From Spizellomyces punctatus DAOM BR117 (taxonomy: Eukaryota > Chytridiomycota > Chytridiomycetes > Spizellomycetales > Spizellomycetaceae), in contig NW_015971545.1 of NCBI RefSeq assembly GCF_000182565.1, positions 683,092 through 747,091 of the forward strand: 64,000 bases of DNA, written 5' to 3'. The position numbers and the translations under genes were made by a program. Shown in pieces: positions 52,120-64,000 of this stretch. How positions within the stretch are numbered: position 1 is the first letter of the stretch; each line of letters begins with the position of its first letter. The notes beneath the pieces were generated by a model. That model was not told where the DNA came from. It made no database searches and was given only the letters and a program-made list of their open reading frames with translations.

Positions 52120-52320
52120 CGGGACGAGGTACCCGGGAAGGAGGAAGGGTCTTTGTAAGAGTAGTGCGACTTGCTTTAATTTATTTATACGATTAGTTAC
52201 AATAGAATAACTTAAGTTCCTCACCAATTAGTGTATTAGCAAAAACAAATGTCAGTGCCTCCACACCAGGGAATAAACCGGCGACAACCGGTTCGGAAAA
52301 GCTAATCTAACCAATCTATG
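52120..52320. other. Gap between RGS gene and Fanzor relic, with small hairpin
   Basis: Tail-to-tail junction of 200 bp. AACCGG at 52276-52281 and CCGGTT at 52288-52293 form a short stem close to the 3' end of the Fanzor frame, the location where guide RNA is expected in Fanzor loci. RNA identity is speculative. Confidence 0.3.
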
Positions 52321-53719
52321 CTACGCTACGGCTGGAACACTCCTCCTGCTGAACACCTCTGGTCTACAGTGCCCATCCAACATTGATTGCACGATCGTTA
52401 GCATATTGCAGGTTGACAGCATATCTCGATTCCAGTAGCGCATCATCCAGGCTTGCTGCAAACAGTTAGGGTTGGCACAACCCAGCAATCCATGGACTTT
52501 TTCAATCTTGCCTTTGTGACGGCGCCAAGGTCTTGAATGAGGTCATTGTTTGAAGCCTTTTTCAATGCCAGAGGAACAGTGAGGGCAGACAGATGAGGTC
52601 TTGTACTCATCAAGGAGGAAGCAGTTGATTCTGTTCCACTTAAAGAGGGTGTGCCAACCTTTCATCTTTGATGAGGTATGAAATCTTGCAGTTCGACCGG
52701 CATCACTCCAATCACCCATCACAATGGTAAAGTTCCCAAACTTGTCACACAAGTTGGATATGAGGTTCGATTCACTCTTCTGATGGTTTATAAATGCATG
52801 CCACTTCCACCACATGTGGGCAGGATGCGAATAGAATTCCTTGCGACAATCCCAATCAGCGTGGCAAACAAGAAGGTAGCGAGTGAAGTCCATGAGGTTC
52901 ATTGTTTTGTGGGATGGTATTCGTGATTCTATGAGATCAACTCCAGCTTCTTCCTTCATTGCTTCTAGTCTCTTTGCAAATCGACAGCTTCCAGTCTCCA
53001 TGGCTCACTGGTTGGTGGTGTAGCGAAATGTCATACCATTGCTGTCTTGGCAGTAGAGAATGTCATGCTTGTTTGGGTCAATAATGATGACATTCTCTGC
53101 TGCTTGACAAGCAGGTAAGTTGTTCTCCACATAAAGCACTTTGGCCTCTGCCACCACCATGTTTGCTGACTTTCTTGCTCCATGCTTTCCATACTTGTCT
53201 GCTTCTGGGTGCTTTAGGTATACAGATACCGAGGTTCCATCTGTCATGATCGAGCCTTCAAACTGCATACTGCAGCGAGACCGAAAAGCTTTGGTACATA
53301 GATTGCAGATGTGCAACCATAAATCAACCTTCTCTATGGCTTCTGCTTCTCGTCGTGTGATGCAAAGAACATGAGAGTAGAGGATGATGGTGTCGATCCG
53401 CACATGGCTTTGGATGAGGGAGCAGTGAAGTGGGATGGCACTGAACTGTCGAAATCCATGCTTTTCATATAGGCTTGACACCCAACAGTATGCAGGAAAG
53501 AACATGAGAGGGTCTACAGCAATGGAATAGTGGCTGGTCATCAGAAAGGGGAATGTTAAGGGACCAAATCTCTTCTAGAAGTTCACTCTCTTCAGCAGTC
53601 AAGTCATCCAGCGATTCTGGCATGGTTTCGAAAAGGAAAACTGACTTTAAATAGCGTAGCTGAGTAAAGAAAGCTTTCTGTGCATCGCTTTTCAGTGGCA
53701 GCTGCCCTTTCCATCCCTT
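52321..53719 (-). pseudogene. Fanzor (eukaryotic TnpB-like RNA-guided nuclease) relic
   Basis: Reading the minus strand from 53719: QLPLKSDAQKAFFTQLRYLK and LDDLTAEESELLEEIWSLN, then after a frame change near 53.5 kb FRQFSAIPLHCSLIQSHVRI, EGSIMTDGTSVSVYLKHP, the RuvC-I motif NVIIIDPNKHDILY, RFAKRLEAMKEE, FGNFTIVMGDWSDAGR, RuvC-II LLDEYKTSSVCPHCSSG joined to the first half of a zinc ribbon, then HGLLGCANPNC (second half) and RYWNRDMLSTCNML (RuvC-III). This order, including catalytic D, E, D and a CPHC...CANPNC ribbon, is that of Fanzor proteins. Two in-frame TGA codons (53005-53007 and 52543-52545) and one frameshift break it. The N-terminal part (~200 residues) is missing, cut where the Ty3 LTR begins at 53720. 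It is therefore inactive as written. A functional Fanzor is known from the chytrid Spizellomyces. No terminal inverted repeats of a carrier transposon could be defined. Confidence 0.82.
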
Positions 53720-54319
53720 TGTAATGGATTTTTTATAGGTAGACTATGGTAAAGACAACTTGGGTCTCCTAGCAGGTTGTGTGGGTGTCCGTACTAGGAA
53801 TCATAGTCTCCGAATCCTTTCTTTGGGCGTTGGTAGCGACTTAAGGGTGAGAGGCAAGGAGAGTCAGTTAGTTGTGAACCGAGCAGGATTTAGAGGCTTC
53901 TGTGTGGGTGATCAGGCTGTTGAAGCACTCTGTTAGGTTCCTGTTAACCTAAGATTGGAGTTGAGAAGCTAGTTGTGGGGATTTAGTGTTGCTACGGCTT
54001 CTGCCCACGACTTATTTTATTGAATACATCCTTTTTATACAAGATTCTTGGATAAACTGTTAAACTAAACTAAACTAATGGGTGCCGCTGCATCGCAACT
54101 GATTTATTGGTGGCAGTACCGATCTCTTCCTTTTCCACACTGGCTCGGGCCTCCACAGGTTGTACGAGGCATGCTGAAATCTAATGTGCCAATTGCCATT
54201 CTCCGAACCAGTTTTTTCAGTTGCGGTAACCCAATCGGTGGAGTTGGTCACGCGATTCGTGCTTCCCGCGTCCGATTTGGGCTTACTCATGATCTCTCGA
54301 AGACATCCTCATCATTACA
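53720..54319 (-). repeat. 3' LTR of the Ty3 element (600 bp)
   Basis: On the minus strand it runs from TGTAATGATG to CCATTACA. It contains a TATA-like TTGTATAAAAAGG near 54030-54043. The 322-bp part 53720-54041 aligns end to end with 61989-62310, and the U3 part matches the inverted copy at 62780-63107. Confidence 0.88.
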
Positions 54320-54329
54320 TCCCCCCTTT
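54320..54329 (-). other. Polypurine tract
   Basis: AAAGGGGGGA immediately upstream (minus strand) of the 3' LTR, the expected plus-strand priming site; the same string precedes the inverted LTR copy at 62780. Confidence 0.8.
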
Positions 54330-54376
54330 GAAGAGCCAACGCACCGGCGCTCCGAGCGGGGGTGTTGGGATGTCAA

Positions 54377-55160
54377 TTACCAGGTCGGTACCGGATCTGT
54401 GGGGTCCGCTTCATCTGCATCTTGGTTCACGACCCAGATGATACTGGCACGGCCACTGATGTTGCAACAAAACCAGATTTGATCTGTTGCGGTATGAACG
54501 ATGGTACCTGGGGTCACGTCAGGGCCAGTTCTGGTTACATAGAGGGCCGTAAAGGTCTCCGCGGCCCTTTTCAGGTTTGTCACGCGGAAATGGTACTCTG
54601 CATGCTCGTGATGTCGGGGTCTGGTGAGCCTTGCAGAGGCTTCCGCTGCGTTTGCTGTCCTTAGGAGCACCATCCTAGCTGCTTCAATGATGGCAGACGC
54701 AAACTCGTGGGCATCATCGTTCAGCCAATCGGTGAACGGAGCCATTTTTCGGCTTCCTGCCTCGTGTTGGGGAACCCCGCGGTCAAGCCAAGCGGCGCAC
54801 GGAGCTGGGCGCCCTCTTTTTCCGGGTTTTTCACGTCAGCAACTATTCCAACCACTGCTTCACCACCATCGGTGGCCTTGCTGTAGGGGTCCGCAATGTG
54901 GTTTGTGAGGGGCTGGCCCACCGCGTAAGGTTTCGGAGCGTCAACTCCCAGCCAAAACTCATGCCCTGGAGTCTGCAGCGGCGCGTTGGGGTTGGTCCGA
55001 AGCTGATGAACCCAGGGTGAACCCAGGTAGCGATCGCAACCCCAAGGCGATCCAGCACGCCCTCGGCCTCGAAGTCACCTGAGTCTTCCTCCCAAGGGTA
55101 GCCAGACATGTACATGGAGGGTATGCTCACTCCTGCTTGTCCTCTGAGATCAGTGTTCAT
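54377..55160 (-). pseudogene. Accessory ORF of the Ty3 element, between chromodomain and 3' LTR
   Basis: After the chromodomain a distinct protein-like reading begins at MNTDLRGQAGVSIPSM (55160) and can be followed across two frame changes: HQLRTNPNAPLQTPGHEFWL, ADPYSKATDGGEAVVGIVAD, KEGAQLRAPLGLTAGFPNTR, DWLNDDAHEFASAIIEAAR and VTRTGPDVTPGTIVHTATDQ, ending PTDPVPTW just before the polypurine tract. The C-terminal ~55 residues are also conserved on the plus strand in the inverted copy (62558-62722). No family is recognised. It is too long and too protein-like for an untranslated spacer. The frame changes may reflect decay. Confidence 0.5.
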
Positions 55161-55517
55161 TGTGTTAGAAATGAAAGTTTTAGTTTCAGTGTCAATAGAA
55201 GGGGTTTGCGAAGCAGAGTGAGTGTGTAAGGGAAGTAGGTCATGGGCGGTTGAAGAGGAACAAAGAGGGGGAGCATGCAGGGGCGTCCTTTTAAGGTCGT
55301 CACCGGCTGATTTTGACAGCTCAGATGCACATAAGCGTGATCGGGAGGCTTGGTGTGGCATTCTCGACTGGTGAGGTAAGCCACACAAAACTGGTTTTCT
55401 TTCTGGTGAGAGGGCGTGATTATCACGTGAGCTATTGTCCGGATAAACCGCGAAGCATTGGTGGTCGGAAGCATAAGCCGTATCTTCCGGGGTGTCGCCT
55501 GCAAGGCTGACTACCAA

Positions 55518-58500
55518 AGAGTCCTCTACTAGCGCGCTAGTGGGAGCTCTGGATCTCCAGTACTCTTCTAAGGCTTCAGAAGCCTCTGTTAGGGCTTCCT
55601 CTGGTTCCCAGGTATCCTCATGGGGTGGGTATCCAGACCAACATATTTGAAATTGACGTTTTCCATGCCTGGTTCAATGGTCTACTATCACTTCCACTTC
55701 AAACTCGCCCTCTGAAGCGTCGGAATCCTCCGCTTGTGCTTCTGCAACCTTTTCCTCAGTTTTGGCGTTGACAGGCTTCTGGTACAGATGTAATTTTGAT
55801 ATGTGAAACCATGGATGAAGTCGTCTCATCTTGTCTGGCAGTTTTAACTCATAGTTGTCATGGAGAGGGTTACAGTCGGTCACCGTGACTGGTCCCAGCC
55901 ATTTTGGGGCAATCTTGGACTCATACCCTGCTAGGTTTTTTGTGCTCAGAAGCACCTTATCTCCTCTCCGGAACTCCAAATGTTGTCGTGATAAATCATA
56001 ATATCTTTTCTGCAAATCCTGGGCTTCGATCATCAGATCTCGGATAAGGATGTTTAGGTTGCCGAGGTGTTTACAGAGCTCTTCTGCATCTGCATTTCTG
56101 GTTTCTGATGGCCTTTCGACGATATCCACCAGTGGATTGTGGGGCTCATAGCCTAGGTCCATTCTGAATCATGTCATTTTTGTCACCTTGTGTACTGTAT
56201 CGTTGATAATGAATTCTGCAACCGGAAGAAAGGTGTCCCAGTCATCTAATCATGTGTTGACCATTGTGGTAAGGACCTGCAAGACCATTGCTTTGTCTCT
56301 CTCTGATTGTCCATCACCTTGAGGGTGGTAGGCTGTGGTGAGCTCTTGATTAATCTTTAGGTTTTTGCAGACCTCCTGCCAAAATCAACTCGTAAACTTG
56401 GGGTCATGGTCCAAGATAATAGTCTCCGGAATGCTGTGCAATGGGATGTAGCATTCTATAAAGAGTTCCGCGACCTGAATAGCTGTCGCAGTGCTCTTGA
56501 GGGGCCATACGTGGATCCTCTTTGAGCATTTACATGCTATTAGCCAAAAGGCATCGTACCCTCTGGAAGTAAGTGGGAGCTTGGTTACGAAGTCAGTCGT
56601 GATGACTGTCCAGCGTCCCGGAGCTGGTGGTATGGGTTTCAGCAACCCCGGAATCAGTTGCGGTACCCTTTTTGAGCGTTGACAGATTTCACATCCTGTG
56701 CAGTGTTTTCTGAAATCTTGTGCCATCTTTGGCCACCAGACTTGCGCTGCAGCTCTGGCATAGGTTCTTTCGAATCCGAAGTGTCCTCCCCCCTCGTGAA
56801 AAAGCTTGCACACCTTGGGGGTGCAAGCAGGGGGCACGTAGAGGTGCCAAAGGTCTTCGGAGACTGAAAAATGGTGCCACAGCAGGTTATCTGCACGTTG
56901 CCAGTCCTGAAGAAAGCGCGCGTTGGCTGTAGTGTAGGTGTCAGGGCTGGTCTCCCATAGGAGCGTGCGGGCCTGTTGGGCTATGGGGTGGAGCTGGCTG
57001 GTGAGGCCAGTGCGGATGGCAGCAATGAGTGCAGGCTGTAATGCCAGACGAAAGACGGCATCTGCCAGTGTTGAGGAAGGTGCAAGAGCCACTGGTGTGG
57101 TGCGCAGCCGTTGTCTTCCGCATTCCGCCACCCATATTTGGGTCGCGGTGGAGCAGAGGAGGGTTTCCGCTCCTAGTAGCCGTGAAAGTGTATCAGTGAC
57201 AATGTGAAAACATCCTGGTTTGTGAACGATTGTCATCCATTCAGACCAGTAACTAAGATTGAGGGCCCAGCAGAGAAGCTTATGGTTCTCACCTTTGTAT
57301 TTAGCGAGCCACAAAAGAGCTCGGTGATTGGTAATGACCATGAAAGGCAGGCCTTCGAGGTATGGGCGGAGTTTTCCGACGCCCCAAATGAGGCATCCGG
57401 CCTCGAGTTCGATGGGGGGGGCCTTTTTTTCTGAGGTGGTGGTGCCTCAGGAATGGTAGCACAGCAGGCATTTAGAAGCATCCGGCTGTAACTGTTCGAG
57501 CATGACATTAAACGCTGTGTAGGAAGCGTCACTGTGAAGGGTGTAGGGGAACCCTTTTCTGGGTGCGGCAAGCACTGGAGCTGTTGTCAGAGCCTGCTTG
57601 GCGGCTGCGAAGGCAGAGTTTCGGGAATCGGTCCATGAAACTTCACACGCAATAAATCTGCGCAGACCTTGGTCGGGGCGCTTGCGAGCAAGGCGTCCGA
57701 CACAAAAGGGGTCAATGGGCAAGTCCACCAGCGATGATTGGCATAGATTGACTGCCGGTTGGTCTGAGGAGCTAGATTTTGGATGTTGCGAAACCTCAAA
57801 TCGGGCTCCGGTGGCTGTGATTGTAGGGGCCACCACCGTGTCGAGCATGGATGGTGAATTGAGCTTTTCAGTGCCTTTCTTTGGGTCAGCGCGACCCTTT
57901 TTAAGGTCTTGGTATTCGCGAACGCCCTCTTGGATAGCATCTTGCAGGGGTCGGACGAGTTCCACGTAGCGAGGGATGAATTGGGCATAGAACCCTAGGA
58001 GACCCACAAAGGACCATAGGTCACCTATGAATTTGGGTCATGGCCAATTGACTATGGTTGCAACCTTGTCTGGATCGGTAGCGAGACCCTGGGAGGAGGC
58101 AACGAAACTGAGAGCCGTGAGCTGGTGAAAGAGCCATTGACACTTGTCGAGTCTTAGGGTGAGTTTGGCTCTGGAACAGCGGTCGAGCCAGTCCGCGATG
58201 GCGTCTAGGGCTTCCGCGGCTGTCTCCGCTCGTGTATGGATATCGTCAACGAAGTTGTTGATATTTTGCCATTTGGAGGGACCCAAGGTGTCGTCCATTA
58301 CCCGACAGAAGTGCGAAGGGGCAGTCTTGGGTCTGAAGGGCATAAAGAGTGGTTCATAGATGCCGTCATGGAGTCTGATCGTGAGCCATTTGCGTACCAA
58401 TGCATCAGTGATGGCGATTTGGTAGAATCCTTTGTTTGTGTCACCTCCCAATATGTATCGGAATGGGACTGCGATGATCCAGTTCAGGATGTCGAGCATG

Positions 58501-61500
58501 ATGGGAAAGGGATATGGGTCCCAGGCCATGCAGTCATTGGCTCGGCGATAGTCGAAGGCTACCTGCGGGGGTTTGTCTGCATAGCGAATGATAACAGGAT
58601 TGCTGGTGAAGGTTACTTCGGTGGTTCGTTTCCACCTCTGAAGCCCCATCATGGTGTCTCACTCCGTCTCGAGGGCTGTCCGCTCCAATGGAGAGTACAA
58701 CCATGGCCTCGAAAGGGGTGGCAGAGCTGAGATAAATTGAGGTGCATAAGGAATCTTGGTGTAGTTCCCTATGAGATGACCCTCATAGCTGAAGGCTTGA
58801 TGGAAGTGTCGTAGAATGTTGATTAGGGCCCAGACCACGGGTTTGGGTTGCTTGAGATCGACGTGGAAATGTTCCGCGTCTTTTAATTGGGCTTCAAAGG
58901 CCCCTGGAGCCTTCTCCGTAGAGTCGAGGTTCCATTTGTTCCAAAGTGTCTGCCATTCTTCTTTGGAAATGTTCTCTTTGGGGTCCGCAACCGAATTATG
59001 GGTTGCAGTGGACAGTTTGAGGCCTAACGGGGCCATTGAGCTAGCTGCGGTGGCCTCAAGAGGGTTTTCGATGAGAAAAGTTTGGGCTGCCACATGCATC
59101 TGTCCCGTGATTAACATGGTTAATTTAGACTTCTGAGCTTTGGCTTTGGTCAGCCGTGGCATTGACACATCCTTCATGAATTCGCCCTGCTTGGTCTTGT
59201 ATGGCGTGCCGCGCATGTGATTGGTGTCCAGCTCATCCGTTATGGAGCAAGGGATAAGGATGTCCAGATTCTTGAGCGTCACCGCAAAACTGGGTAACGG
59301 GGGTTCCTGAACCAAGGTTTGGAGTTTCAAATGTCCCAGAATGTCATTGGCTAGGATGATGAGAGGTTTCCCGTATGCAATGACTCGGAAATAGGTGTGG
59401 AAAGTCAGGTATTCTCCTCCGTGGCCTTTGAGGGAAGTTTCGAGGCATACTGTCTTGGTAGATGAGATACGTCCACCAATGCCATTGAAAGCCATCGTTT
59501 CCGCATCCTGCAAATCGGTTTCGGAGAACAGAAGGCCCTGGTATGTGTCGGAAACCAGAGACTTGCAGGCTCCTGTGTCTAGTACCACAGGTGCCCAGAG
59601 CTGAGTGATGACGGCTAGCATCCAGCAAGGCTGCGTTTGGGTCTTGGTCTGGCTTTTGAGTACATCGCCTAAATCTACCGAGTAGAAGGCGTTGATGGAA
59701 GGCACCGCGACCTCGAAATGGGGCGCGATGTCGTTACTTGTTGCTTCCGTAGCCTTGATCGCACTCTCAAAGTGCTCTCTAGATTTGTCATTTTGTGGTT
59801 TTGTTGTTTTATTCTGGCGAGCAACTTGTTCGATAGCCAGCATGACTATACACGTCCGTTCGCTCTCTTTGTGTCTTTGGAGACGTGGATGGTCTTTAAC
59901 GTGCAGAAATTTGGGGTTTCCGCGACAATAATAATAGTCTGAGCAAACGATATTGCCTGTCAGGAGAAATGCCACCAGTTGCAGGTTGGCGTAAGAATCA
60001 AAGATAACAGGATCTTCAGAGCTCCACATCAAGAATTTCTCGCGCTCATCGAGCCTTATCCAGGCAAGGAGGATCAAACGAGGGGTACCATCTTCTCGGA
60101 CTTTTCGCAGGATTCGATCCTTGTCAGCTTCAGCTGAGGCAGCAATGTAGAGGTGGTGGGAACTCCACGTGACTGTGTAGGGGTCGTTCCCGAGGTGCCC
60201 AGCGCCTCGCTTTGGTTCTTTGGCGAAGAAGCTGAGCATGCGGGGGTTGTCGCCCATCATCAGAGCCACTTGTGGGGTGCCCCAGATGATGGCTATGTTG
60301 TCCCAGACTCGGTCCCAGCCCTGCGTGGGCATGTGGGGGTCCTCTTCCTTGGTCACTGTGACCTTGGAAAGAGGTGCGGTCATCAAAATTGTTGATTCCG
60401 AGTGCTCGGGTGAATGAAATAATCCGATGGTGTGGAATCCTTGATTAGCGGCAGCTGTCCTTTCCAGTTCTGAAGCCGAAAAAAGAGTCTCGGTGGTAGC
60501 AGACGTTGAGTCCAGCTCCACTATGTATGACTTCTTGGACTCCTGTTTGGGTTTCCAACCTGCGGGCATGGGTGCTCCGTATGGTCCCTTCTTTCCATCT
60601 TCAGGATCTTTTCGGTTCGGGTTCTGCCAGCAGAAAACATTCCAATGCTTTTTCTGACAGAATTTGCAGGGTGCCGGTGGTTCCTTGTTGGGGTCCGGAA
60701 CCATCTTCTGAGGGCCGTTGCGACCCTTTTCGGGGTTTCCGGTTTTATGTTGAGCCGTCTGCTTAGAGCCTTTGTTGGTTCCGGTCTTTTGTGACTTCTT
60801 CTGAGCTTCTGCAGCACCGCTGTAGCAAGGGTCTCGCTTTCTGGTGTCATCAGAGCCAAAATAAAGGCGCAGGAAGTCTTTTAATTTGGTCAGGTTCGTG
60901 ACGTTACAGGATTTGACCATGATTTGGATGTCGCTGGGCAATTGTTCGACTATTAGGTCGAAATGCTGGTCAGCGGGACATTCTATGTTTGCCCGGTCGC
61001 CATAAGCGAGGCGCCGGAGATGAGTTTTGTGGTCGATGAACGCGAGAAAGCTGCGAAATTCTTTGGGGTTCTCATGGCAGCACACATATTCAGTTTTGCG
61101 CTTGGACTTGGTTAGGGGATCTCGGAACTCTCAAAGCAGTTCTTCTTTCCACCTTTTCCAGGTCCATGAGCGAGTTTCCTGGGCTTCCAGAGTGTAAAAC
61201 CACATGTCAGCAGGGGTTTTCTTGGCTGTCATGGCTGGTAGGAGCTGTACCATCCTGGCATCTGAAGTCACGCTAACGTTTTGAAGAAGTTGGACTTTGT
61301 TAAGCCATTCTTCAATGTCTTGGTTTCTTTTGCCCGTAAACTCGGGTACGTCCTTTGCTTTCAAGAAGTTGACCTTGGTGTTGCTGGCACTTGGATTGGA
61401 GGCACCGGACCTGGAAAACTTGGTTCGGTACGCTCCCTTGGTGTGTCCGACGTTTCCCACGGGGTTGCGGACCGTTCTCTTGTAGCTCGTGCTATGAGAG

Positions 61501-61861
61501 GTTGTTCAGGCAGTGGGTGATGTGCTAGGGCTTCTAAGGCTCGTGCGAGGCACTCATCCGCCACTGTCTGACATTCGGAAAGCCTATGAAGCTGTTCCAT
61601 AAGATTTTGAGTTGCCAACTGCATTGCAGCAGTCGAGTGGGCAATGTCTTCTTTTAAAGCTGCCACTTCAGAGGCCATTGTGGCCAAGTTAGGGGCTTCC
61701 GGTTCAATGGAAGTGGTCCCCAAACACCTCGGGCATGTTGCGGGAGGGACTTCAATGTCCTCCGCAGGACCCTGACTATGAGTCTGGATCACAGGTGAGC
61801 GGCCTCGCATTGGTGAGCATTCGACCAGCATCATTCTCAGTTTCGTGAAGTCTGTTTCCAA
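55518..61861 (-). pseudogene. gag-pol of the Ty3 chromovirus (broken by TGA stops)
   Basis: gag starts at ATG 61861 (frame 1) and continues in the next frame from about 61460, then one frame runs to 55.5 kb. Domains: a CX2CX3HX4C zinc knuckle (CKFCQKKHWNVFC); aspartic protease with VVLDTGACKSLVSD; reverse transcriptase with VAFDYRRAND, FRYILGGDTNKGFYQI and the NNFVDDIHT catalytic box; RNase H with HSDASYTAF; integrase with an H2C2 finger (HEGGGHFGFERTYA...CTGCEICQ), D residues in ITTDFVTKLP and ILDHDPKFTS, and DGQSER; a GPY/F-type module; and a chromodomain (QICWSGYPPHEDTWEPEEAL). TGA codons interrupt at 61131, 58659, 58038, 57447, 56385, 56250, 56169 and 55674. Several stand where the family usually has Arg, e.g. 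before the RNase H S-x-GTTT stretch and after FTS in integrase. Confidence 0.88.
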
Positions 61862-61970
61862 AACAAGAGAAAAGGTTTCTGAGTAGCTACCTGAGCAGAT
61901 CTCGGTTTGCGCAAGAGTTTCGGTATGACTGAATAAGGTTTTCAGCTGAATTTGAGAGGGGAAGGTGGTT

Positions 61971-61988
61971 CATCATGCTTCTCCACCA
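61971..61988 (-). other. Primer-binding site of the Ty3 element
   Basis: Immediately inside the 5' LTR end (minus strand ...CGTTACA) lies TGGTGGAGAAGCATGATG. The TGG directly after the LTR fits pairing with a tRNA CCA end; the primer tRNA is not identified. Confidence 0.45.
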
Positions 61989-62310
61989 TGTAACGGATTT
62001 TTTGTTGGTAGACTGTGGTAAAGACAACTTGGGTCTCCTAGCAGGTTATGTGGGTGTCCATACTAGGAATCGTAGTCTCCGAATCCTTTCTTTGGGCATT
62101 GGTAGCAACTTGAGGGCAAGAGGCAAGGAGAGTCGGTTAGTTGTGAACCGAGCAGGATTTAGAGGCTTCAGTGTGGGTGATCAGGCCATTGAAGCACTCT
62201 GTTAGGTTCCTGTTAACCTAAGACTGGAGTTGAGAAGCTAGTTGTGGGGATTTAGTGTCGCTACAGCTTCTGCCCGCAACTTATTTTTATTGAATTCATC
62301 TTTTTATACA
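61989..62310 (-). repeat. 5' LTR of the Ty3 element, U3-truncated (322 bp)
   Basis: Aligns without net length change to 53720-54041, including the TGTAACGG terminus. Similarity ends at TTTTTATACAAGA, just upstream of the TATA-like box, so only the R-U5 portion and TATA region remain. Most visible differences from the other LTR are at CpG sites (e.g. TAATGG/TAACGG, GTCCGT/GTCCAT, GGGCGTT/GGGCATT). Confidence 0.85.
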
Positions 62311-62554
62311 AGAATATGCTACGGTAACATCTACACTAGTTTCTGTAACCTTCATTAGGGTGGCGGTGTCCGATATTCCCATTTCCGATCATTGCCATGA
62401 TCAATTATGATTGCGCAATGTATCCTTTGTGCTGTGCTGGTGTAGCCCAGAACCAAGCTTGATCTCAGGGGTTTTGAAGCTTAGGTTGCAATTGCAGAAA
62501 CCTCAATCATGGTCACCTGATGCCTTTAAGCGAACCGGTTCATCAGAGTTGTTC
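62311..62554. other. Unassigned spacer between two opposing retroelement pieces
   Basis: About 244 bp separating the truncated 5' LTR from the inverted fragment. No gene or LTR similarity is apparent. Its right part may belong to the internal region of the inverted fragment, since a weak protein match (KR...VTRTGP) continues leftwards. Confidence 0.35.
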
Positions 62555-63107
62555 ACTACAGTAACCAGAACTGGCCCCAATGTGACCCCAGGTACCATTG
62601 TTCATACTGCAACAGATCAAATCTGGTTTTGTTGCAACGTCAGTGGCTGTGCCAGTATCATCTGGGTCGTGAACCAAGATGCAGATGAAGCAGACCCCAC
62701 AGATCCAGTACCAACCTGGTAATTGACATCCCAACACCCCCACTCAAAGTGCCAGTGCATTGGCTCTTCAAAGGGGGGATGTAATGATGAGGACATCTTT
62801 GAGAGATTGCAAGTAAGCCCAAATTGGATGCGGGAAGCACAAATTGCATGACCAACTCCACTGATTGGGTTACTGCAACTGAAAAAACCAGTTCAAGGAT
62901 GGCAATTGGTGCATTAGATTTCAGCCTGCCTTGTACAACCTGTGGAGGCCTGAGCTAGTGCAGAAAAGGAAGAGATCGGTACTGCCACCAATAAATCAGT
63001 TGCGATGCAGCGGCACCCATTAGTTTAGTTTAGTTTAACAGTTTATCCAAAAAATCTTGTATAAAAAGGATGTATTCAATAGAATAAGTTGGGGGCAGAA
63101 GCCATAG
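62555..63107 (+). mobile_element. Inverted fragment of the same Ty3 family (3' end plus partial LTR)
   Basis: Reverse-complement match to 53.99-54.55 kb: the end of the accessory ORF (TGA/TAA-ended ...PVPTW at 62722), polypurine tract AAAGGGGGGA (62770-62779), then the LTR from TGTAATGATG at 62780 to about 63107, where the match stops in GCAGAAGCC. Orientation is plus, opposite to the main element. Compared with the main copy almost every difference is CpG to TpG or CpA. The missing LTR end is displaced by the element at 63108. Confidence 0.85.
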
Positions 63108-63535
63108 TGTGACAGAATTCTTCTGTCAGTGCTATGGTTATACTGGTTAGATGTGGTTCCAAACTAGTGGTCACATGACTTTGCTGATGGTGTCAGCATT
63201 CATTTGACCAGAATTAGATAAATAAGCAGATTTAGCCATTTCTGGCTAAATTAGATGAGTATCCTGACACACTAGCATCTGCCCCTTTTAATCAAGTGGC
63301 ATAGTGTATTTAGGATGACTTGTCTCACTTGTGATTGGCTATAAATGGTGCAATAGGCTGACAAATAGTTTAGGATGACATGTACAAGATCTGATTGGGT
63401 AGTTAGGATATAGCATTTGTCAGCCCCTTTGTCTATAAAAAGAGGACCTCTCTGAGGCCCCTCAAGAGAATAACAAGTAGTAACCAAGTCTTCCCTAGTT
63501 TTCTGTTGTCTTCTTGTCCCTGCTAGCCTGTTACA
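63108..63535 (+). repeat. LTR of a second retroelement (428 bp)
   Basis: Begins TGTGACAG at the point where the Ty3 LTR match stops and ends ...CTGTTACA, directly followed by TGGTAGCACCACC, a primer-binding-site-like string. A TATA box (CTATAAAAAGAGG) sits near 63432. An 8-bp inverted repeat (TGACAGAA TTC TTCTGTCA) lies at the 5' end. No CpG was found in it. Confidence 0.6.
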
Positions 63536-64000
63536 TGGTAGCACCACCTTAGACAACAACCCCAGACTCTTAGACCTTCTGTGAGAGATCAGAAGCTAAG
63601 ATCCCCAGACCCCCAGAACCTGCCCTAGATGTTCTGAGTAATATCAGAAGACCAACAGACCCCAGACCCCAGACCCAGCCTTAGTCCTTCTGAGTAATAT
63701 CAGAAGACCCCTGCCTCTTATCCCAGACCCAACTTATGCCCAGAACCCCCCTCAAGGACTCCTACAGACCAGCCCACACCATCCCATACCACAAACCTAC
63801 CCCCAGCACAACCTCCAGAACTACCACCAGACACACCACTTGGTTAGCATCAGAAGCTCTGATAAAACAGATAGAGCTTTTCTATTGTGGGATTGTGAAG
63901 AAGCTGTAGAGTCCCCCTGTATCCTCCCCACCAGTTGTACTTGCAAGTAATATTGCATATTTTGGGCCTGTGACCCACCCTATCTTGACTGCAAGTAACA
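63536..64000 (+). mobile_element. 5' leader of the second LTR element, runs off the window
   Basis: Starts with a possible primer-binding site (TGGTAGCACC). The leader is C-rich and G-poor with repeated CCCAGACCCC and CAGAAGACC units; TTCTGAGTAATATCAGAAGA occurs near 63637 and again near 63690. No long ORF is visible before the edge, so the family cannot be assigned. Confidence 0.5.

Follow-up and report, generated by a model that had tools for sequence, protein, structure and literature searches.

What is the interrupted reading frame on the minus strand at positions 52321–53719 of this stretch of Spizellomyces punctatus DNA, and what kind of element does it belong to? The window (the whole stretch of 64,000 nucleotides that was analysed) had been read from its sequence alone as containing the relic of a Fanzor RNA-guided nuclease, tail to tail with an RGS receptor gene. 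Fanzor elements are known from this fungus. The SPu-1 family was described in S. punctatus in 2013 by Bao and Jurka, who counted 17 full-length copies and noted putative TA duplications (PMC3627910). Saito et al. in 2023 reported 42 Fanzor loci in the species and 134 ghosts, elements without the ORF (PMC10432273). For the family member SpuFz1 they describe a 75-nt omega-RNA scaffold, a guide of 14–15 nt and a CATA TAM, and cleavage was demonstrated (PMC10432273). They also report that no transposase was found between Spu-1 ends and that at 11 Fanzor loci further genes, gypsy among them, lie between the ends, which was read as incidental (PMC10432273). Is the relic one more decayed copy of this family, or is it a different kind of element? 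Why are both of its internal stop codons TGA? And where is its 5' part?

The coding features of the relic are these.

52321..53719, minus strand: remaining Fanzor1 ORF, broken, corresponding to SpuFz1 codons 166–638 with RuvC-I, RuvC-II, the zinc ribbon and RuvC-III
53005..53007, minus strand: in-frame TGA at SpuFz1 R407 (CGA in SpuFz1)
52543..52545, minus strand: in-frame TGA at SpuFz1 R564 (CGA in SpuFz1)

Translation and sequence match to SpuFz1 identify this region as the C-terminal three quarters of a Fanzor1. Every piece of it matches SpuFz1 (PDB 8gkh): 53468–53743 with an E value of 3.1e-20, 53008–53574 with 2.7e-94, 52546–53004 with 2.2e-80 and 52324–52542 with 1.6e-38. A Pfam search of the same pieces gave nothing above the cut-off, the best being the TNB domain (E 0.081). 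As Pfam by itself did not detect Fanzor, the family was placed through the PDB sequence matches, which also rule out an unrelated zinc-ribbon family. The motifs IIIDPNKHDILY, DEYKTSSVCPHC, GCANPNC and RYWNRDMLSTCN follow one another on the minus strand, all four in the order given by the sequence-only reading. The C4 zinc ribbon is kept between RuvC-II and RuvC-III (CPHC and CANPNC). The D/E/D residues, whose absence was to have counted against the assignment, are also kept: at the SpuFz1-aligned positions the catalytic codons are GAC (D383), GAG (E541) and GAT (D606; numbering from PMC10432273). In two other copies that will concern us, on C10 (L012) and C15 (L044), the codon aligned with E541 is AAG.

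The count of two TGA codons and one frame change was correct. The single frame change is a 5-nt deletion at SpuFz1 codon 231, at about 53530 in the window, and the remaining indels are multiples of three except for a 1-nt difference at the stop codon. Codons 1–165, the WED/REC N-terminal part, are absent. Identity is 83.4% to SpuFz1 (1396 aligned nt) and 90.4% to the nearest copy (1388 nt). As a dead Spu-1 Fanzor1 transposable element, the relic is an ordinary member of a published family. It shares with Spu-1 and SpuFz1 the protein family, the catalytic residues, the TA-flanked inverted repeats and the omega-RNA scaffold at the 3' end (PMC3627910; PMC10432273). It differs from them in its ghost-type right end and second omega-RNA stem, its lost N-terminus and its stops. 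One earlier claim does not stand, namely that the locus was active in the recent past: the relic, C10 and C15 ORFs, which form the subfamily discussed below, all carry stops, and with all three copies broken and identities at the levels just given, recent activity is unsupported. The truncating gypsy insertion, the ghost-type end and the CpG origin proposed for the stops lie beyond what that reading had covered.

Intact relatives had been predicted, and they exist. Fanzor queries against the 24.0-Mb genome (29 contigs) gave 52 matches for the middle part, 49 for the N-terminal part and 57 for the C-terminal part. Of the 40 loci examined, 13, SpuFz1 among them, have a Fanzor frame that starts at an ATG, spans 621 codons or more and reaches the usual C-terminus; a fourteenth long frame, L031 (625 codons), has a different C-terminal end. 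The 638-residue product of copy L014 is identical to the SpuFz1 chain over residues 2–638, and the eight bases after the L014 scaffold, TCTATAGG, fit guide residues U76, C77, U78, A81 and G83 of the SpuFz1 structure (residues from PMC10432273). The Spu-1 family has been published already, together with its intact copies, guide RNA and ghosts. S. punctatus has a second Fanzor1 lineage, L049 and L050, with 57% and 55% identity to the middle piece of the relic and with ends that differ from the relic's; the two copies are neighbours at C9:617499–624345, about 60 kb from the window. The Fanzor1 of Parasitella parasitica (PDB 9cf0), which has the TAM ATN (PMC11423790), is remote, its RuvC and zinc-ribbon parts aligning to the relic with E values of 8.7e-14 and 9.4e-9. 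A remote Fanzor-like stretch at C7:73762–74904 has 28% and 24% identity to Spu-1 pieces and a 571-codon open frame at the first match. A near-perfect palindrome of about 52 bp lies within a Fanzor ORF at L013:3564–3615 (oriented).

Are the TGA codons stops at all? In a 29-copy alignment, stops occur in 18 codon columns and TGA in 16 of these, as would be expected if TGA were read as an amino acid and the gene were functional. We give this reading next to no credence. TGA at SpuFz1's codons is confined to seven copies, six of them with 28–34% CpG transitions and the seventh the decayed L017 (15.1%); the other 22 have none. The relic, besides, is frameshifted and lacks its first 165 codons. In 15 of the 16 TGA-bearing columns SpuFz1 has an arginine CGN codon. 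Transitions in the relic affect 32.4% of consensus CpG positions versus 5.4% of other C/G, and the CpG value is 28.4–34.2% in six copies (L026, L012, L011, L024, L044 and L030) and 6.8–18.3% in the other 23. In Spizellomyces 5mC is reported to be confined to transposons in a 2025 paper (PMC12695648). Given the CGN columns, the CpG transition excess and the transposon-confined 5mC, methylation-driven CpG decay rather than recoding is the likely source of the TGA codons. The stops were also considered as possible proof that a dead copy had moved and passed them on. This was rejected: TGA at R407 and R564 recurs in copies that are not sisters in the tree, and these columns therefore look like CpG hot spots.

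Conserved DNA past 52321 had been expected to mark the guide RNA and the element end. Homology does continue there, down to the end of the element at 52229, and the following features were placed in and beside it.

52229..52303, minus strand: 75-nt omega-RNA scaffold (by position), predicted to form two stems like SpuFz1's; all 75 nt identical to the C10 copy
52229..52259, minus strand: right terminal inverted repeat of ghost type, not canonical Spu-1 (end comparison and genome scan)
52214..52228, minus strand: flanking DNA, the would-be 15-nt guide (guide length from PMC10432273)
51334..52119, plus strand: convergent ORF with an RGS-like domain, its stop about 110 bp from the right end of the element

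The tail-to-tail pairing with an RGS-domain ORF is weakly supported: the domain match (E 7.9e-5) scores 23.5 bits, just under the cut-off of 23.9. No Pfam match was obtained for the 366-aa ORF that precedes it.

In the canonical Spu-1 copies displayed, the last bases of the scaffold are GTGCTAGTGCCAATACCCATCGGCTCCGCACTA or nearly so, and L028 and L038 have a deletion there. The relic and the C10 and C15 copies instead end in AGGCACTGACATTTGTTTTTGCTAATACACTA, identical in all three, and the canonical right end was not found in them. This ghost-type end makes up nearly half of the relic's 75-nt scaffold. A genome scan with the 31-nt right end, allowing up to three mismatches, gave 12 matches: the three Fanzor loci on C9 (the relic), C10 and C15, and nine loci with no adjoining Fanzor match. 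Five of these nine were read, and all five have a ghost interior. The reversed control pattern gave no matches in the same scan. Over scaffold and right end the relic agrees with ghost L052 at 74 of 75 nt. Could it nevertheless be an ordinary canonical copy that decayed, its odd right end being the product of mutation? The ORF, at 83.4% identity to SpuFz1, fits such an origin. Against it, four canonical copies align with the relic's final 38 scaffold nt only locally, over 9–19 nt with 8–13 identities, and three Fanzor copies have one and the same 31-nt end, which recurs with 0–3 mismatches at the nine other loci. Mutation is not expected to converge in this way, and this explanation is very improbable.

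The end swap need not have cost the relic its guide RNA. When the 75-nt scaffolds are folded by themselves, that of the relic and that of SpuFz1 are predicted to share one two-stem plan, with an 8-pair hairpin first (one bulge in SpuFz1). In both predictions the terminal bases of the element close the foot of the second stem, UGGUGUG/UACACUA in the relic and UGGUGCGGG/UCCGCACUA in SpuFz1. The relic fold has −23.4 kcal/mol and a z of −2.81, with 1 of 200 shuffles as good; for SpuFz1 z is −1.88, with 8 of 200 as good. The scaffolds of ghosts L051 and L057 have a similar predicted fold. At the right end of L057 the closing stem is different again, pairing GTGTATTG with CAATACAC, which suggests that changes in the stem sequence go together with changes in the element ends. 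On paper, then, the relic's guide RNA survives the exchange, keeping the two-stem plan with other letters, and the omega-RNA of its subfamily would carry a ghost-type second stem. A Fanzor with such a stem in cis is plausible, since ghost scaffolds work with SpuFz1 in human cells (PMC10432273).

How would the intact system act? From what is published for SpuFz1 (PMC10432273), the ORF of intact relatives encodes the RNA-guided nuclease, and the element's 3' terminus serves as the omega-RNA scaffold; the guide is transcribed from host sequence adjoining the right end, and the complex cuts where CATA precedes a match to the guide. An empty site, reading CA, TA and then the right flank, would present just that sequence. 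In the occupied site ACTA stands in front of the guide, and so this site should be spared. CA precedes the left end in 24 of the 27 Spu-1 copies displayed, and CATA is found at the left end of the C10 copy; at the presumed left end of the relic the tip has decayed. A second target for the relic's guide was sought and rejected: a scan for CATA plus the 16-nt flank, allowing up to three mismatches, returned the relic's own locus only, reading ACTA.

The other end of this subfamily is also unlike that of canonical copies. The left end of the C10 copy is non-canonical and agrees at 93 of 94 aligned nt with ghost L057, a ghost chosen for reading because of its C10-type left end. The 127-nt promoter stretch before the ATG of the C10 copy points the other way, with 103–124 matching bases (with gaps) in seven of ten canonical copies compared versus 80–86 in six ghosts; the short-promoter canonical copies L018, L040 and L020 fall below the ghosts, at 50–60 bases. 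The subfamily thus resembles ghosts in its left end (C10 copy versus L057) and in its scaffold and right end (relic versus L052). Ghosts have no Fanzor ORF, while the relic keeps one at 52321–53719. The simplest reading of these alignments is that the three copies are mosaics, with a Fanzor promoter and ORF set between ghost ends and the joints falling within stretches common to both. Such elements would most likely have arisen by recombination between ghost and Fanzor within the shared promoter and scaffold stretches.

The ghosts have contents of their own. Those read (L051–L055, L057 and L018:1150–1830) have the TATATAAACC promoter and a short ORF, then an intron-like stretch before the omega-RNA. 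The short ORF starts with MR(M/I/V)(P/L)LWC(R/Q)GPRPPD in six of the seven ghosts translated; L055 departs from this and has a stop soon after. Judged by eye, a spliced ORF would end in VSETSSD in L052, in L053 and in the ghost at L018. What ghosts transcribe may be a small, spliced RNA that resembles an mRNA and carries the guide RNA.

The order of events might be the reverse: ghost-ended Fanzor elements could be ancestral, the ghosts having arisen by loss of the ORF and not the mosaics by its capture. Ghosts do keep the ends, the promoter and the omega-RNA scaffold, as this requires. The ghost interiors that were read, however, match no Fanzor loci outside the ends and a short 5' stretch, and the small ORF and intron-like segment are the ghosts' own. 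The promoter part of C9/C10 is nearest to long-promoter canonical copies. In the ORF tree (36 copies, those with less than 600 nt of the compared part being left out) the C9 and C10 ORFs are nested inside canonical copies (branch support 99/97), a placement whose root is unsure because the outgroup is remote and its branch very long. On balance an ancestral role seems unlikely. The same tree joins C9 and C10 with modest support (87/66) and places C15 elsewhere; one clade of all three is not rejected (p-AU 0.13). The mosaic subfamily may therefore reflect one capture or two. As far as the literature searched shows, it is a new variant. Among the titles of Fanzor papers listed, none concerns a ghost-ended Fanzor or gypsy targeting, and the locus tables of Saito et al. 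may already list the three ghost-ended copies.

What happened to the 5' part? At its 5' edge the relic breaks off exactly at 53719, and a Ty3/gypsy LTR begins at 53720.

53720..54319, minus strand: LTR type A, 600 bp, of a Ty3/gypsy element, truncating the Fanzor ORF
54320..61988, minus strand: Ty3/gypsy interior with RT_RNaseH, Integrase_H2C2 and SH3_Tf2-1 matches
61989..62560, minus strand: LTR type B, 572 bp, the other end of the gypsy element (LTR comparison)

The missing part was not found just beyond the gypsy within the window, and on contig C9 there is no N-terminal match nearer than about 110 kb from the relic. It is present in the C10 copy (78%). Orphan N-terminal pieces elsewhere were considered as the lost half and rejected, none of those beside an LTR ending at the right codon (from coordinates, judged by eye). 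A C10-type left end occurs, with up to three mismatches, at seven places in 24 Mb. One of them, C9:774347–774376 (L056), is on the relic's strand about 37.5 kb upstream, outside the window. It matches the C10 copy over about 247 nt and then, right after about ATGC(C), joins an LTR of the kind found at the relic; its outer tip, at C9:774376, has decayed. Type, contig and strand link it to the relic, and we infer that it is the relic's own left end, both ends belonging to one element. Codons 1–165 would then have been lost between at least two gypsy insertions, with further nesting.

That left end could instead come from a second element, the relic's own having been lost. The two gypsy junctions differ in sequence and so are not those of one insertion, and the intervening codons are absent, both of which suit two elements. 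Yet C10-type left ends are as rare as stated, and the C15 copy has a similarly exploded layout, its left end at C15:11712 and its right end at C15:69508 on the same strand. A second element is accordingly rather doubtful, and we keep to a single element with distant ends.

Is a gypsy insertion in a Fanzor gene unusual here? Among the matches listed (the best 40 of 76 candidates for type A and the best 40 of 75 for type B) there are 63 LTR copies, 39 of type A and 24 of type B, in 38 clusters at a 16-kb join. This count leaves out 2 of 41 type-A rows, which belong to type B, and 16 of the 40 rows listed for type B, which belong to type A. Within 300 bp of a Fanzor-coding block lie 26 of the 63 listed copies and 22 of the 38 listed clusters. 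The Fanzor-coding blocks, counted without the remote C7 paralogue (73762/74278), number 70 and total 83.0 kb of 24.0 Mb, and random placement would put 0.44 copies and 0.26 clusters near them. For the listed clusters the binomial P is 6.9e-38, or 2.5e-16 if only one tenth of the genome is open to insertion; the LTR query was itself chosen because it touches a Fanzor gene. The other genome lists, ghosts included, hold the best 40 of 177, 141 and 167 candidates.

The control was a repeat occupying 63108–64000 of the window, which has a constant end at 63108, contains repeated units and abuts Fanzor blocks at C17, C18 and C3. Once 28 of its 92 rows (short internal-repeat rows and fragments) are left out, 3 of its 37 clusters (1.5-kb join) or 3 of 27 (16-kb join) are near a Fanzor block, and the gypsy excess over it has a Fisher P of 5e-6 or 2e-4, respectively. 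The control too exceeds chance, and general repeat nesting thus explains part of the gypsy association. An LTR lies within 300 bp of 28 of the 70 Fanzor blocks versus none of the 80 ghosts listed (two 32-nt rows left out), which span only 33 kb and from which an LTR-cut ghost could be missing, as it would rank lower. Near the Fanzor blocks the gypsy coding strand runs along the Fanzor gene at 12 of the 26 LTRs and against it at 14, and the gypsy junctions that were read fall at different Fanzor codons. Breaks made by Fanzor itself were rejected as the cause of insertion: the LTRs run TG..CA, and the solo LTR in L017 has a 4-nt duplication, which is integrase-like. The bias may come from targeting of Fanzor genes or from selection against insertion elsewhere.

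What, then, is this locus? Very probably it is a dead Spu-1 Fanzor1 copy, in which a Fanzor ORF and promoter sat between ghost ends, later broken by gypsy and decayed at CpG. Ty3/gypsy insertions beside the ATG and before codon 166 would have killed it, the sequence between them would then have been lost, and CpG-to-TpG decay would have produced the two TGA codons.

A wider claim may be put forward tentatively, and only as a whole: Fanzor genes and ghosts would be cargo variants of one set of ends, and a Ty3/gypsy family would target Fanzor genes. We think it somewhat less probable than its negation. If it is true, a ghost chassis can acquire a Fanzor ORF, which then makes the omega-RNA end of the ghost its own, and one trans-acting mobiliser and one pool of guide RNAs serve Fanzors and ghosts alike. 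RNA-guided nuclease genes would also be a landing pad for retrotransposons, silenced and broken by gypsy in the proportion of listed clusters given above (22 of 38). The gypsy bias at Fanzor genes merits a proper test. Should targeting be the cause, the integration preference would be an unusual one; should it be selection, disruption is tolerated or favoured in Fanzor genes but not in other DNA. A Fanzor ORF in ghost ends suggests an exchange of parts and provides a natural experiment on the choice of scaffold by a Fanzor protein. It bears on how Fanzor elements move, and on why ghosts without an ORF, with working guide-RNA scaffolds, outnumber them.
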